Shown: one piece after another, positions 2,180 to 45,655 of the stretch | Position numbering within the stretch: position 1 is the first letter of the stretch | How the letters are laid out: each line of letters starts with the position of its first letter | From: Bacteroidales bacterium | GTDB taxonomy: Bacteria; Bacteroidota; Bacteroidia; Bacteroidales; UBA3824 | DNA: 64,000 bases | Reading direction: 5' to 3' | Assembly (NCBI GenBank): GCA_017544805.1 | Contig: JAFYDK010000099.1 | Location: forward strand, 62,001 to 126,000 | The notes under the pieces: model-generated | Seen by the model: only the letters and a program-made list of their open reading frames with translations | Told to the model about the DNA's origin: nothing | The model's database searches: none | Program-made: the position numbers and the translations under genes

Positions 2180-3513
2180 TGGAAAAGGTATTATCAATTT
2201 TAAGACAGATTATTGTATTTTCAATAATCTGTCTTTTAAATATTTGTACTTTATATGCTCAGAATGAGTACAATATGTTGCGGTTTAGAGACGGTACTGT
2301 ATTCGATTTTAACACATCACCGATGACTGTAAAATATAATTCCGGTTCATTATCTAATTCGTATTCTGCAAGTATTTGTGATGAAAACGGGGATTTGTTA
2401 TTTTTCGGGTGCGAAGATATAAGTCATTTTTTCTCTATATATGATAAAAGCAATGAGCTTATATATAGTAAGGAATGTATGCGTGCTAACAATATATATG
2501 CCTTGCGTAAGCCGAATACATATAATACATATTATTTTATTCTGACAAAAAGGGAAAAATCGCAGTTAAGCAGGGGAAATTTGTTGTATGTTAAAATAGT
2601 AATTAATGACAACGGCGGTTATGATATTACTTCAAATGAATTGGAGGCATATACAGGGCAGTTTCTGATACCATACGTGTATAAAAACGATGTTTATGTA
2701 GTCTGCGACAAAGATTCTGATATTCTCTGTACTCTAAAACTGAATGATGACGGGTTGGAGCTGTTAAACGAATATGACGCAAATTTTAAAGTCGGTTATT
2801 ATCATTTAGTTTCTTTTAAACTGAAATTTAACAATGAAATGTCGAAATTGATATTCAATGAAGGAATTTTCGATTATGATATTTCACAGCATAAAATTAC
2901 CGGTTATAAGCCTTTTCCGGGAAGAATATTATCTTTTGAGTTGTCAGAGGACGGATATTATACATACATATCTTCAGGGAGGAAGCTTTTGCGTTGTAAA
3001 ACATCTGAAATATCTTCTGCTTTTGAAAATCCTGAGATTTTTGAGTTGTTGAAAAAAAACGTCGGATACCATGATATGTTGTCATGTAAGGGTAATATTT
3101 ATGCGGCGGATCATTATACCAATAAAACAGAACTAAATAAACATTTTATTACCGTAATTGAGAATGTAAATTCTAATGATTGTAATTTGAATTATTCAAA
3201 ATTGGAAATTACATCTCCGATAAATTTTTTTTTCCCCTATATACTCCGGACTTACCGTTCATTTGAAACCGAAGTATCTTGTCTGACTGCTGATTTTACA
3301 TATACAGGTCATTATGCAGAGTCTTTTGAATGGGATTTCGGCGACGGCTCTCCTAAGTCTGTTTTAAAAAATCCGAGCCATACTTACGAAAAAGAAGGAA
3401 AATATTCTGTAACATTAAAAGTAAAATACTCTGATAATGAGGAAAGTACCATTGTTGATGAGGTGAAAATTGCTAAGGGCTTAAGTCCGTTGAAAGTGGA
3501 AATTGTTAAGTGA
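2179..3513 (+). CDS. PKD-domain exported protein (complete paralogue)
   Basis: 444 aa. Signal peptide with predicted cleavage after LYAQ (residue 28). Residues about 35-330 form a beta-propeller-like region beginning with a VFDFNTSP motif and a 'SICDENGDLLFFG' motif, as in the N-terminal part of many gliding-motility-associated Bacteroidota proteins. A PKD domain sits at about 360-435 (FEWDFGDGSP). There is no C-terminal sorting domain, so export beyond the periplasm by T9SS is not supported. Long stretches are identical in DNA and protein to the truncated gene at the window start, while the loop after 'YFIL' and the segment before the PKD domain differ, so the copies have begun to diverge. 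The start overlaps the upstream lipoprotein stop. Confidence 0.8.
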   Translation: MEKVLSILRQIIVFSIICLLNICTLYAQNEYNMLRFRDGTVFDFNTSPMTVKYNSGSLSNSYSASICDENGDLLFFGCEDISHFFSIYDKSNELIYSKECMRANNIYALRKPNTYNTYYFILTKREKSQLSRGNLLYVKIVINDNGGYDITSNELEAYTGQFLIPYVYKNDVYVVCDKDSDILCTLKLNDDGLELLNEYDANFKVGYYHLVSFKLKFNNEMSKLIFNEGIFDYDISQHKITGYKPFPGRILSFELSEDGYYTYISSGRKLLRCKTSEISSAFENPEIFELLKKNVGYHDMLSCKGNIYAADHYTNKTELNKHFITVIENVNSNDCNLNYSKLEITSPINFFFPYILRTYRSFETEVSCLTADFTYTGHYAESFEWDFGDGSPKSVLKNPSHTYEKEGKYSVTLKVKYSDNEESTIVDEVKIAKGLSPLKVEIVK

Positions 3514-10953: not shown

Positions 10954-12774
10954 TTATTCCCAATCTTGTTTTTTCTTTTCGTACCAAGATTTCATAATGT
11001 AAAATGCTTTTTTCTTTTCACCGTTGTCAGAGAAAAGTCCTTTACGGTTGTAATAATCTTGAATGTCGTTTAACACTCTGCGGGGTGAACGGAAATCTTT
11101 TAAAATCCATGGTGTTGTTCCTGCAAAACCATCAATTTTGTCTAACATTGCAATGTTTTGAATGTAAAGATTTTCTTGAAATTCTTCCGTCCAACGTTGA
11201 TTCTTTTCACCGTGATAACCATATTTTGCACCGCCGCCAAACTCGCTGATAATCACCGGTTTATTGTACGGTATTTCCCAAGTCATTTTAGGTGCGTCGT
11301 TTACGTCGCGATACCACCCGATATACTGATTGAAACTGATAACATCAACGTATTTGTTCATATTATCCTGAAGTTTGTTATGAAAATTTGATGCCGAGGT
11401 AACTTCCATTGCCATACTTATAAGACGTGTTGAGTCCAAATTTTTGGCGTATTGCGCAAGTTGTGAAAGAAAATTTTCTCTGGCTTGACCGTGCGGAGTT
11501 TCGTTAGCAATCGACCATATAATAACGTTTGCGCGGTTTTGATCACGCAAAATCATATCTTTTAACTGATTTTTTGCATTCTGAAGTGTTGCGGGATTTT
11601 CCCATGCAATAGTCCAATAAACGGGAATTTCTGACCATACGAGTAAACCCATTTTTTCAGCCGTTCTTACCATATATTCATTGTGGGGATAATGCGCCAA
11701 ACGGACAAAATTGCAACCGAGTTCTTTCGCCCAGCCTAATAGTTTTTCTGCGTCTTCTACACTGTTAGCACGTCCGCCGCCATTGGGTTTTTCCTCGTGG
11801 ATGCTGATTCCGCGTAAGAAAATGGGTTTGCCGTTAAGAATGATTTTTTTGTCCTTGGTTTCAATTGTGCGGAAACCTATTTCATCTTTTATCGTCGTAT
11901 TTCCTAACGTTAATTCCGCTGCATAAAGTTTCGGATTTTCAGGCGACCATAATTCCAACGTTTTAGCCTTTATAACGCCTGATATTTTACCGTCGCTGTC
12001 TGTTACATAACTTTGCTTTAATTTTAATTCCGGAAACGAAATTTCAACGGTTTTGCCCGAAAGTTTTTGATTGAGATTAACCGAAAACGCAATTTCACGG
12101 AATTTTTGTTTCGTGTTTTGAACTTTTTTCAACGTAAAACAATAGTTTTCAATATAAACATCCTGAGTTTCAACCAAAAAAACATCCCTTGTAATGCCAC
12201 CGTAATTCCACCAGTCAAAAATCTGAGTCGGAACATTTTCCGCTTTGCGTTTATTATCGACTTTTACAATAACAAAATTTTCACCGTCCTTTATCTTGTC
12301 CGTAACATCATAATTAAACGCTGTAAAACCGCCTTCATGCCGTCCCAAAAGTTTTCCGTTGAGATAAACGTATGCTTCGTAATTAACCGCTGAAAAATAC
12401 AAAATCACTTTCTTGTCTTGCTTTTTCTTATAATTGAACGACTTCTTAAACCATACAGTTCCCTCATAAAAAAATAATCTCTCATCCTTCGTATTCCAAT
12501 CCGAAGGAATCTGCATTTGGGGCGCTTTGTCAAAATCATACTCTATCAAATCCTCAGGTCTCTGAGGCTTGGAATTCAAAAAGAACCCCCACGATGTCGG
12601 ATTCATCCTATAATCATAATAGCCCTCTTCTTGAACATCAACAATATAATTCCAATTTCCGTTGAGAGAAATTTTCTCCCTCGAAAGTACGTTCCCAATT
12701 TGCGGAATCTCCTGCGCTCTCGCTCCTAACGAAAGCACTATAAAACATATAACCGCTTTTAATATTCTATTCAT
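10954..12774 (-). CDS. Secreted GH2 glycosidase, beta-glucuronidase-like
   Basis: 606 aa. Signal peptide with cleavage near ARAQ (residue 21), then the GH2 sugar-binding jelly roll, immunoglobulin-like middle domain and TIM barrel. The acid/base is Glu425 in SIANETP and the nucleophile Glu511 in ISEFGGG. After the nucleophile, Asn576 and Lys578 in YNRKGLF match the NxK motif that binds the carboxylate of glucuronic acid in beta-glucuronidases, so that activity is favoured over beta-galactosidase. It is a monocistronic leftward gene with a good -7 box. A periplasmic enzyme removing glucuronic acid from glycans or conjugates is the likely role. Confidence 0.82.
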   Translation of the reverse strand: MNRILKAVICFIVLSLGARAQEIPQIGNVLSREKISLNGNWNYIVDVQEEGYYDYRMNPTSWGFFLNSKPQRPEDLIEYDFDKAPQMQIPSDWNTKDERLFFYEGTVWFKKSFNYKKKQDKKVILYFSAVNYEAYVYLNGKLLGRHEGGFTAFNYDVTDKIKDGENFVIVKVDNKRKAENVPTQIFDWWNYGGITRDVFLVETQDVYIENYCFTLKKVQNTKQKFREIAFSVNLNQKLSGKTVEISFPELKLKQSYVTDSDGKISGVIKAKTLELWSPENPKLYAAELTLGNTTIKDEIGFRTIETKDKKIILNGKPIFLRGISIHEEKPNGGGRANSVEDAEKLLGWAKELGCNFVRLAHYPHNEYMVRTAEKMGLLVWSEIPVYWTIAWENPATLQNAKNQLKDMILRDQNRANVIIWSIANETPHGQARENFLSQLAQYAKNLDSTRLISMAMEVTSASNFHNKLQDNMNKYVDVISFNQYIGWYRDVNDAPKMTWEIPYNKPVIISEFGGGAKYGYHGEKNQRWTEEFQENLYIQNIAMLDKIDGFAGTTPWILKDFRSPRRVLNDIQDYYNRKGLFSDNGEKKKAFYIMKSWYEKKKQDWE

Positions 12775-12819: not shown

Positions 12820-12850
12820 TTATGAAATTTTGAAAAAAACAAATGATATG

Positions 12851-13031
12851 CACTACCTACGGTAGTGAGTGCCGCTCAAGCCGCGGGGGCTGTTCTTTCT
12901 TGGAAGAAAGAACCAAAGAACTTTTGTGAGATATAAAAAGGGAAAGCCCCTAAAGGCTTTCCCTTTTTATATCTCTTAAAAGTTTTCCGGTTCCCTTTTC
13001 CAAAAGGGAACTGCCTCGCCGGCATGAGGCG
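12851..13031 (+). repeat. Dispersed multi-hairpin element, copy A
   Basis: A 181-bp intergenic element made of consecutive hairpins, repeated at 45476-45655. In order: CACTACC/GGTAGTG; a GC-rich CCGC/GCGG pair; TTCTTTCT/AGAAAGAA with a TGGA loop; a 21-bp perfect stem with outer end GAGATATAAAAA and a 6-nt loop CCTAAA; GTTCCCTTTT/AAAAGGGAAC with a CC loop; and GCCTC/GAGGC around GCCGGC. A further 7-bp hairpin at 13036-13052 is private to this copy. It sits between the start of the GH2 gene and the end of the DUF3098 gene, both leftward. It encodes no protein of its own. Confidence 0.85.
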
Positions 13032-13053
13032 CATTCACCGCTGTAAGCGGTGT

Positions 13054-13308
13054 TTAATCATTGCTTTTTTTCATAATAGCATAGATTTCGAAGCAAAATC
13101 CGAATAGGACGACGATGGGTGCGAGAGTTATGTGCGTGAAGCTGAATATTGATTCGTCGAAGACGTTTGGGTCATCGGAGCCGCCGCCTCCCATGAGGAT
13201 AAAACCTATTAGGATAATGCCTAAACCTATTAGCATGAGTTTGTAGTTCTCTTTAGAGAGAGCCATTGAGAATTTAGAATCTTCTTTGTTATCGTTTTTT
13301 ACTTCCAT
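13054..13308 (-). CDS. DUF3098 small membrane protein
   Basis: 84 aa with two membrane segments (about 25-42 and 60-77) separated by a glycine- and aspartate-rich loop (MGGGGSDDPNVFDES). This matches the Bacteroidota DUF3098 family, whose role is unknown. In many relatives the gene lies in an ftsX-DUF3098-uppP-truB order; here it is last in the hotdog/ACP operon, 15 bp after the oxidoreductase, while uppP is alone at 56864. The displaced position suggests that the operon joined it recently or that the block was broken up. Confidence 0.8.
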   Translation of the reverse strand: MEVKNDNKEDSKFSMALSKENYKLMLIGLGIILIGFILMGGGGSDDPNVFDESIFSFTHITLAPIVVLFGFCFEIYAIMKKSND

Positions 13309-20678: not shown

Positions 20679-20740
20679 TTTACTTTTTAGATTTTTGTTT
20701 AAAAAATTAATATATAGCGGTGGGTCTGAAAGAAATGTCT

Positions 20741-20800
20741 GCTTTTGCTTTAGCATTTTTTTTAAGCGGTTGCAATCAAAATCAAATCCGTCCGCAATTA
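20741..20800 (-). promoter_or_regulatory. Probable SAM-II riboswitch in the metK leader
   Basis: On the minus strand the leader reads GCGG (20795-20792), then a loop with GATTT and a T-rich stretch ending ATTGCAA, then CCGC (20769-20766) closing the P1 stem, exactly 11 nt of A-rich sequence, and GCTAAA (20754-20749). The SAM-II structure known from the metX leader has the same order: P1, GAUUU, AUUGCAA, P1', 11 nt, GCUAAA. Position also fits: 65 nt before metK and 10-15 nt after the expected transcription start. Recognised by motif reading, not by a covariance search. Confidence 0.8.
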
Positions 20801-20812
20801 TCTTTACGGCTG

Positions 20813-25974: not shown

Positions 25975-26586
25975 ATGAAAATTTTTTGCATCGCAGCCAA
26001 TTATCCTAAACACAATCAGGAAATAAAGATGAAAGCCGAGTTAGAACCCGTTATGTTTATAAAACCGGAAACGGCGTATCTTAAAAATTTCAGTGATTTT
26101 TATTTGCCGGAATTTTCTTCTCAGGTGGAATACGAAACCGAAATTGTGCTTAAAATCAATAAGATGTGCAAATGTGTTGATAGAAAGTTTGCTTCACGTT
26201 ATTATTCGGAATTAACATTAGGTCTTGATATTACGGCAAGAGATATTCAGAACTTAGCGAGGGAAAAAGGTTTGCCGTGGTTTTTGAGCAAAGGATTTGA
26301 TTTTTCAGCTCCCGTTGGGGATTTCTTGCCTAAAACTGATTTTGATACTGTTCATGACATAGATTTTTCTTTGAAAATTAACGGTGAGGAAGTTCAAAGA
26401 GGAAATTCAAAGGATATGATATTTTCTTTTGACGAAATAGTGTCATATATTTCGCAGTATGTAACCCTTAAAACGGGAGATTTAATCTTTACGGGTACTC
26501 CACAAGGGGTTGGAAAACTTAATATCGGTGATAAACTCGAAGGCTTTTTGTCTGGGAAAAAGGTTTTGGAGATTAATGTAAAATAA
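25975..26586 (+). CDS. Fumarylacetoacetate hydrolase (FAH) family protein
   Basis: 203 aa, the length of the small YcgM-like members. Metal-binding glutamates lie in YETEIVLKI, the conserved [10 protein letters not shown] segment and the [12 protein letters not shown] loop follow, and the C-terminal [14 protein letters not shown] motif is complete. Family members hydrolyse or decarboxylate acylpyruvates and related keto acids, with Mg2+ or Mn2+. It is a single gene with its own promoter; the first repeat of the 43-bp array begins on the last base of its stop codon. Confidence 0.88.
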
Positions 26587-26838
26587 TCATATAACCCTAA
26601 ATGATAACTTTGTTCAAAGGACAAAATGATCATTTAACCCTAAATGATGACTTTGTCCAAAGGACAAAATGATCATTTAACCCTAAATGATGACTTTGTC
26701 CAAAGGACAAAATGATCATATAACCCTAAATGATAACTTTCTCCAAAGGACAAAATGATCATTTAACCCTAAATGATGACTTTGTCCAAAAGACAAAATG
26801 AGCATATAACCCTAAATGATAACTTTGTCCAAAGAGGG
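26586..26838. repeat. 43-bp tandem repeat array, six units, two hairpins per unit
   Basis: Units begin at 26586, 26629, 26672, 26715, 26758 and 26801 (the last is partial). A full unit contains ATCATTTA-ACCC-TAAATGAT, a perfect 8-bp hairpin, and TTTGTCC-AAA-GGACAAA, a perfect 7-bp hairpin; junctions form the palindrome AAATGATCATTT. Two unit types alternate in the order A B B A B A: A has ATCATATA with GATAAC, B has ATCATTTA with GATGAC. The array fills most of the 368-bp gap between the FAH gene and the TonB-dependent receptor. It starts on the stop codon and has no unique spacers. Confidence 0.9.
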
Positions 26839-26857
26839 AAAAAATATAATCAGAGGG

Positions 26858-26904
26858 CGTTATAATAAACTATTTTGGTTTTTATTATTAAACGTTATAA
26901 TAAA
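26858..26904. promoter_or_regulatory. Repeated CGTTATAATAAA sites upstream of the receptor gene
   Basis: A 12-bp direct repeat at 26858-26869 and 26893-26904, 35 bp apart, with an imperfect inverted copy TTTATTATTAAACG at 26881-26894. They lie 51-97 bp before the receptor ATG, where an operator or promoter would be expected; no TAnnTTTG match is present here. Function is inference. Confidence 0.4.
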
Positions 26905-33017: not shown

Positions 33018-33503
33018 ATGAAAAAGTTGAACAAAAAAATGGTTGTAGTTGCAATGGCTTTTGCAGCAACATTGTTGAATCCGGCAAACAGTTTTTCTAA
33101 TGTTAGAATCGACACTCTTAAAACTGCTGATTCTGAAGAAACTGCAATCAACCCCGATTTTGAAGAAGAATTGGAAGAAGAGGCTTTAGTAGTTGAAAAC
33201 TGGATGTTTGAACCCGTTTATGTAAACGCTGAAGAACATCTTGAGGTTGAGGCTTGGATGAGCGAAAATTTATTTGAAAATGCTGAAGAAAAACTCGAAG
33301 TCGAGGATTGGATGAGCGAAGATTTATTTGAAAACGCTGAAGAAAATCTCGAAGTTGAGTCTTGGATGAGCGAAAACGCATTTGAAGATGCTGAAGAAAA
33401 ACTCGTAGTAGAGGATTGGATGAGCGAAAAAATCTTTGAAGATGCCGAAGAACCGCTTGAAATCGAATCTTGGATGAGCGATCCCGATTATTTCAAAAAA
33501 TAA
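33018..33503 (+). CDS. Exported acidic protein with 18-residue WM repeats
   Basis: 161 aa. Signal peptide to about residue 26 (NPANSFS), then almost only tandem repeats. The unit is 18 residues: AEEKLEVEDWMSEDLFEN and variants, with six Trp-Met motifs preceded by N, A, D, S, D, S in turn. The D/S alternation suggests a later 36-residue duplication. The protein is strongly acidic and has no cysteine or catalytic motif. I recall short exported proteins with similar 'EWM' motifs in Bacteroidota, without known function. The gene has its own promoter, a long leader, a clear Shine-Dalgarno and a strong structured 3' end, so high expression is plausible. Eighteen residues equal five alpha-helical turns, which would line up the tryptophans if helical. 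Confidence 0.85.
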   Translation: MKKLNKKMVVVAMAFAATLLNPANSFSNVRIDTLKTADSEETAINPDFEEELEEEALVVENWMFEPVYVNAEEHLEVEAWMSENLFENAEEKLEVEDWMSEDLFENAEENLEVESWMSENAFEDAEEKLVVEDWMSEKIFEDAEEPLEIESWMSDPDYFKK

Positions 33504-45475: not shown

Positions 45476-45655
45476 CGCCGCCTACGGCTGCGGTTGCCGC
45501 TCGCCGCGGGGGCGTTCTTTCTTGAAAGAAAGAACCAAAGAACTTCTAAGAGATATAAAAAAGGGAAAGCCCCAAAAGGCTTTCCCTTTTTTATATCTCT
45601 TAAAAGTTTTCCGGTTCCCTTTTTCAAAAGGGAACTGCCCCGCCGGCATGAGGCG
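45476..45655 (+). repeat. Dispersed multi-hairpin element, copy B
   Basis: Same element and orientation as 12851-13031. The first stem reads CGCCGCC/GGCTGCG with one mismatch; the long stem here is 25 bp, with six A and six T where copy A has five and five, and its loop is CCAAAA; the next stem is GTTCCCTTTT/AAAAGGGAAC with a TC loop. It sits between convergent genes ending at 45457 and 45705. Small frames through it are by-products of the repeat. Confidence 0.85.

Follow-up and report, generated by a model that had tools for sequence, protein, structure and literature searches.

A dispersed mosaic palindromic repeat whose arms have changed sides between sister species of a Bacteroidales genus

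Two copies of a hairpin-rich intergenic sequence, copy A (12851-13031) and copy B (45476-45655), lie in a 64,000-nucleotide stretch of a Bacteroidales genome (GenBank assembly GCA_017544805.1, contig JAFYDK010000099.1, positions 62,001 to 126,000), referred to here as the window, and raise the question of whether a folded RNA or the behaviour of the DNA itself has shaped them. A preliminary description of this DNA read them as a dispersed five-hairpin element with compensatory changes between its copies, speaking either for selection on the folded form or for a mobile palindromic unit of REP or MITE type, and could name no known family. By comparing copies among related genomes, all of them metagenome assemblies, we find a shuffling repeat of a little-known kind rather than a single regulatory RNA.

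Both copies are indeed present with the stems described, in the same order and in the same orientation, and both fold far better than shuffled sequence (-102.2 kcal/mol, z -12.1, for copy A and -101.9 kcal/mol, z -12.3, for copy B; 0 of 200 shuffles as good). The count of five hairpins proved too low, since the array of copy A holds seven, with a GC hairpin at both ends and a second outer hairpin beyond 13031. Broadly, the plan across all copies is a mirror array, in which an outer hairpin (h1, optional), a GC hairpin (optional) and an AT hairpin (h2) with a 12-base tail lead to a centre, after which the same parts follow in reverse order. The features of the two copies are the following:

12851-12867, + strand: copy A, outer hairpin h1, CACTACC-TAC-GGTAGTG, with compensatory variants among the copies
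12872-12886, + strand: copy A, GC hairpin of the L arm, CCGC-TCAAGCC-GCGG
12892-12925, + strand: copy A, L-type arm, hairpin GTTCTTTCTTGGAAGAAAGAAC and tail CAAAGAACTTTT, on the opposite side in the sister species G016
12928-12975, unstranded: copy A, centre, perfect 21-bp hairpin AAAAAGGGAAAGCC-CCTAAA-GGCTTTCCCTTTTT inside GAGATAT...ATATCTC, terminator-like on both strands
12978-13011, + strand: copy A, R-type arm, tail AAAAGTTTTCCG and hairpin GTTCCCTTTTCCAAAAGGGAAC
13017-13031, + strand: copy A, GC hairpin of the R arm, CGCC-GGCATGA-GGCG
13036-13052, + strand: copy A, second outer hairpin, CACCGCTGTAAGCGGTG, outside the coordinates of the preliminary description
45476-45492, + strand: copy B, outer hairpin h1, CGCCGCC-TAC-GGCTGCG, with one stem pair broken
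45497-45509, + strand: copy B, GC hairpin of the L arm, CCGC-TCGCC-GCGG
45514-45547, + strand: copy B, L-type arm
45550-45599, unstranded: copy B, centre, perfect 25-bp terminator-like hairpin
45602-45635, + strand: copy B, R-type arm
45641-45655, + strand: copy B, GC hairpin of the R arm

The L-type arm reads GTTCTTTCTT..AAGAAAGAAC-CAAAGAACTTTT and the R-type arm, read inward, GTTCCCTTTT..AAAAGGGAAC-CGGAAAACTTTT; the differences between them are transitions, and the pairing of each hairpin is preserved. Each complete copy parsed has one L and one R arm and none is LL or RR, the partly converted locus L007 aside, while the GC hairpin also occurs in other arms as CGCC/GGCG, CGGC/GCCG, GCGC/GCGC or CTGC/GCAG. 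The conserved R-arm hairpin is found twice in the window against 0.00 times in 100 shuffles. Furthermore, copy A as a whole is a single long near-palindrome (arms 12833-12948 and 12955-13070, 72% complementary), so that long-range pairing competes with the local stems. As for the changes between the two copies, the two reported switches from A-T to G-C pairs in the first stem do occur on both sides, with a third pair broken in copy B (T-A to C.T), and the extra A/T pair reported in the centre is real, the perfect arms measuring 21 bp in copy A and 25 bp in copy B.

The dispersal read from these two copies is borne out on the genome scale, as grouped search matches give about 21 loci, and not merely two, in the 3.05-Mb assembly to which the window belongs (G000). 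The element is carried by six of the 17 other genomes of the same genus and, by the same search, by no genome of the 21 other genera covered within the order. An exact R-arm pattern run over 84,980 species returned 51 stretches, all titled as Bacteroidales metagenome-assembled genomes, from goat abomasum, sheep rumen, red deer and one rumen-type assembly (Tb.RUG.530); the L-arm core pattern, among 295 genomes of the order, was found in G000, in G004 and, once each, in two more. Among Rfam families none attains its gathering score with the element, and a search at E up to 1 gave just hairpin models far under threshold, the best being a miRNA model (53.7 bits against a gathering score of 245) to which the long hairpin is alike by shape. 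Elsewhere, the window holds a SAM-II riboswitch aptamer at 20740-20801 on the - strand (66.1 bits against a gathering score of 44), tandem arrays of 43-bp units (26537-26877) and of 54-bp units (33177-33481), and, in two adjacent genes, a long direct repeat (1-1128 and 2379-3506; spacing 2378 bp) with 91-96% identity along much of its extent.

The behaviour of the arms became apparent when loci were grouped by the similarity of their flanks, the arms were read in the frame of those flanks, and G000 was compared by script with G016, with which its flank identity is mostly 91-97%. At 12 of the 19 orthologous sites with both arms readable, the arms are swapped left to right and the flanks stay: L001/L066 (copy A), L003/L032 (copy B), L002, L004, L008, L010, L011, L025, L027, L062, L064 and L065. 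The order is unchanged at the other seven (L006, L007, L009, L012, L018, L022 and L061), and in one further pair (L005/L078), the twentieth, the G016 copy is reduced to a single R hairpin with a GC hairpin on either side. Private marks move with the arm, namely GGAGGC at L004/L057, the outer hairpin of copy B at L003/L032 and an aberrant L hairpin at L011/L071; ectopic donors of the swapped arms were also considered, and rejected at the loci where such marks had moved. Between G004 and G014, none of seven sites shows an arm swap, which counts against the explanation favoured below. The outer hairpin h1 travels with the arm in L002-L004 and stays in copy A, and at L025 and L027 h2 is swapped and the GC hairpin is not. 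Swap boundaries thus vary by locus, lying outside h1, in the gap between h1 and the GC hairpin, or in the gap between the GC hairpin and h2, which fits homology-based switching and not one fixed recombinase site.

The centre, on the other hand, keeps its orientation in the readable swapped pairs (L001, L002, L003, L004, L008, L011, L027, L062 and L064). The clearest case is L062/L162, where a 75-bp asymmetric centre scores 71 forward against 19 reversed; in the others of this list the orientation is that of loops read by eye, and in several type I/II pairs the call comes from a 6-8 base loop, as whole-centre scores do not separate the orientations because they include tail differences that move with the arms. 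Inversion of the whole element, a candidate at one stage, was dropped since the centre loops keep their orientation. The centre has been replaced at L010 and lost at L025, and is ambiguous at L065. Centres also flip without arm exchange, as in L033 versus L034 (G004/G014) and L081 versus L090; a third copy at the locus of the latter pair, L099, differs from L081 in both arms and in the centre.

The explanation that we favour, and hold to be rather probable, is a BIME/REP-like mosaic palindromic repeat of one ruminant-associated Bacteroidales genus, situated at gene 3' ends and reshaped by template switching, for which we infer both the mechanism of arm exchange and the function as RNA. At the DNA level, hairpins would be extruded from the near-palindrome while it is replicated or repaired, and template switching by the polymerase, or an exchange of strands between the arms, would then repeatedly copy, flip or trade pieces, the outcomes being reciprocal L/R exchange with the centre in place, arm overwriting, occasional centre flips, and centre loss or replacement. 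Long perfect palindromes are poorly tolerated by bacteria (palindrome instability), and LL or RR products would be palindromes of this sort, so that the copies that survive would be those with both an L and an R arm, whichever comes first. Dispersal to new sites would be older, as suggested by sites that hold the element in some species and lack it in others. At three loci, the corresponding gene junction of G007 and/or G001 is without the element (L214, L215, L216, L218), which fits gain or loss alike; these element-free sites are too diverged for a target duplication to be read, and no clean empty site was found. The architecture, copy number and gene-end location of the REP- or MITE-like unit proposed earlier stand, and its current mobility is not borne out, the copies of G000 being nearly all at the same places in G016.

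Arm overwriting is seen directly at L007, whose left tail (CGGAAAACTTCTGGGAG) repeats the sequence of the tail on its right, the left tail of the G016 ortholog L051 being CAAAGAACTTTTAAGAG; the mark TTCTGGGAG in the left tail of L007 was copied from the right arm, and L051 carries it on the right only. Multi-base "compensatory" changes can thus arise in one event. That template switching between inverted repeats can homogenise arms and invert spacers is established (PMC8604942; see also PMC8794818), and quasipalindrome or template-switch mutation as described there resembles the overwriting of L007 and the centre flips of L033/L034. Reciprocal arm exchange with an unflipped centre lies outside the outcomes reported in the passages of these papers on template switching (PMC8604942, PMC8794818), and would need four switches or a double exchange, which counts against template switching.

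The position of the copies with respect to genes, taken from simple ORF calling, bears on the RNA side of this explanation. Copy B lies between convergent genes, exactly the intergenic 3' setting of the preliminary description, which suits copy A in part, as the latter is 3' of a DUF3098 gene (13054-13308, - strand) but also 5' of a glycoside hydrolase gene (10954-12774, - strand). The copies of G000 occupy 12 convergent, six tandem and no divergent sites (n=18), against 8, 19 and 6 in the window background (Fisher p 0.006 for the convergent excess), none of about 60 copies over all genomes lies between divergent genes, and many type IV copies start 1-5 bases past a stop codon. Transcripts from either side would fold into a row of hairpins, and the type I centre, as in copies A and B, which by sequence is a GC-rich hairpin with a T run behind it on either strand, might act as a bidirectional terminator or as the 3' end of an mRNA; such a role fits the convergent excess and the absent divergent sites. 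A pattern scan gave 5 against 0.4 and 2 against 0.4 terminator-like sites in shuffles, mostly at other hairpins. Judging from these sequence patterns, we limit the proposal of a putative termination function to type I copies: centres of type IV are not terminator-like, and some copies without a terminator-like centre lie between genes likely to share an operon (leuC-leuD, acrA-acrB-like, cysD-cysN-like, names read from sequence), where termination is unlikely. No rule was found between loop orientation and gene direction, and selection on loop orientation was dropped. At the leuC-leuD junction of G009 (contig C65, L221), a different GC-rich palindromic insert (CCGGGGGTTAACACCCCCGG...) stands where G016 and G004 carry the element; this junction thus attracts more than one kind of hairpin element.

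A wider reading, to which we give a rather small chance, takes the element as part of a palindromic repeat class of ruminant Bacteroidales, Acetobacteraceae plasmids and phages, with unlike arms regularly exchanged, reciprocally and in place, centre and flanks untouched, by a rearrangement distinct from inversion, conversion and transposition and possibly enzyme-driven. The 34-base type IV L arm (GTTCTTTTTTGAAAAAAAGAACCAAAAAACTTTT) occurs exactly in IMG/VR contigs, in one Pseudoroseomonas cervicalis plasmid and in one Microviridae record from cattle blood; a second P. cervicalis plasmid has the L arm with one base different, and a second Microviridae record (cattle genital secretion) an R-type arm with its GC hairpin. 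The arm-pattern matches in IMG/VR comprise 31 stretches (L228-L258) with 37 distinct places and up to three copies per contig, on contigs of 54-72% GC (mean 63%); in at least 20 of them another arm follows, most often at a distance of 42-60 bases. The IMG/VR and P. cervicalis elements are like those of the genus in their order of hairpin, tail, centre, tail and hairpin and in an L arm identical to type IV, and, as in the genus, one of the plasmid copies directly follows the 3' end of a gene; they differ in the R arm (CTTCTTTTTCTGAAGAAAAAGAAG), in surrounding DNA of 54-73% GC and in that the plasmids come from another phylum. Searched whole, the 180-bp copy B had no match among plasmids and one partial match among phages, and two 14-kb viral contigs matched plasmids in nearly nothing but the element. 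No published description of these two-armed elements was found, a literature search on Roseomonas palindromes being empty. The arm, AT-rich and self-complementary, may have arisen by convergence, but chance would hardly yield an identity of 34 bases. In the two Microviridae records (L212 1201-1255, MG945619.1; L259 669-702, MG945182.1), both from cattle samples, a single arm each lies in a non-coding stretch.

That the element is a structured cis-acting RNA under selection, either a terminator or a 3' stabiliser, whose changes are ordinary RNA covariation and whose DNA exchanges are incidental, appears improbable to us. The strong folding of copies A and B, the compensatory changes in h1 and h2, the near-invariant arms next to diverged flanks and the location at gene 3' ends would all suit such an RNA, and both hairpins covary above shuffled alignments (h2, 99.5% of cells paired, score 0.301 against 0.153; h1, 96% paired, 0.427 against 0.171). 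This covariation demonstrates conserved hairpins and offers no choice between RNA selection and a DNA mechanism, since template switching in DNA, with its copying of an arm or hairpin side, makes the same changes; the inference of selection on the folded form drawn earlier from the compensatory changes does not follow, L007 being a direct case. Besides, the h2 double changes mostly separate the L and R arm types, which implies few events, the copying at L007 shows that double changes are possible in one step, and centres have been replaced or lost between close relatives (L053/L054, L025/L080).

REPs are palindromes of 20-40 bp with a GTAG or CGTC motif left unpaired at one end (PMC3733652); the present unit, at about 180 bp and with no GTAG or CGTC foot found by eye beside h2 or the GC hairpin, falls outside that definition. 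It has in common with REP, BIME and REPIN sequences (PMC3733652, PMC2817692, PMC3116915) short dispersed palindromes, inverted pairs, variable spacers, a mosaic make-up and a location mainly between convergent or same-direction genes, sites which REP elements likewise favour (PMC3733652). As in REPs and BIMEs, its intergenic sites avoid divergent promoters, and as in BIMEs, inverted palindromic units alternate with other motifs (variable centres, optional outer and GC hairpins). It differs from these families in having about 21 copies of about 180 bp rather than many units of 20-40 bp, with three distinct hairpins nested in each arm, arms of two fixed types that are unlike each other, no RAYT gene next to it, and arm exchange at fixed sites. 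A MITE would share its terminal inverted repeats with an autonomous transposon; among the matches in G000 and related genomes, no copy was noticed that has a gene between its arms. The hairpin and palindromic elements of mitochondria and plastids (PMC2800124, PMC2670323), compared by description only, are similarly mobile-looking nested intergenic hairpins with no known transposase, and differ in their organelle genomes and unrelated sequence. In this sense, the element is of a known kind, the bacterial interspersed palindromic mosaic, and is a new family with an unusual and well-replicated behaviour.

It is likewise unlikely, in our estimate, that a RAYT (Y1) transposase acts here in trans to mobilise a REP/REPIN or MITE family, with excision and re-insertion behind the arm exchange. 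Such a family would account for dispersed palindromes at gene ends and for sites occupied in some species and not in others, and PF01797 genes stand above cut-off in 12 of the 18 genomes of the genus. However, the arm motif was within about 1.5 kb at none of the 22 Y1 loci searched, so that the link to RAYT/Y1 genes suggested earlier found no backing, G000 has no Y1 gene above cut-off and a lone weak match without a Pfam match, and inspection by eye showed no GTAG or CGTC foot next to the hairpins. Flipped re-insertion, moreover, would invert the centre and keep the borders fixed, whereas the centre stays and the borders vary. A 356-aa protein of G000 (L063, 3831-4901), with a sub-threshold Y1 transposase-like match and no Pfam match, has SusD-like and secreted-protein genes as neighbours.

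Invertible segments are common in Bacteroidales and both arm orders exist at orthologous sites, but in-place inversion by a site-specific DNA invertase (phase variation) is very improbable, as there is no fixed crossover site, the centre is not inverted with the arms and, the centre being near-symmetric, inversion would hardly alter any output. An assembly artefact at a multi-copy palindrome would find an example in L059, a 3-kb G014 contig almost identical to G000 in which the left half of one locus meets the right half of another (L065 and L022, joined inside h2R; either a chimera through contamination or a real ectopic recombinant), but we give it hardly any credence, since the arm beside each flank is readable from short junction stretches, independent errors predict LL or RR about half of the time and almost no complete copy is either, and locus marks move with the arms.

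The mosaic repeat reshaped by template switching remains our favoured explanation, and the exchange pattern between G000 and G016 has a meaning beyond it. The 19 comparable sites in two sister species constitute a natural, repeated record of how cells handle long imperfect palindromes, and a repeat that swaps its arms offers a direct test of RNA selection against DNA template switching behind "compensatory" changes. Finally, with one arm found unchanged in phage contigs and in an alphaproteobacterial plasmid, the element may belong to a wider family that has no name as yet.
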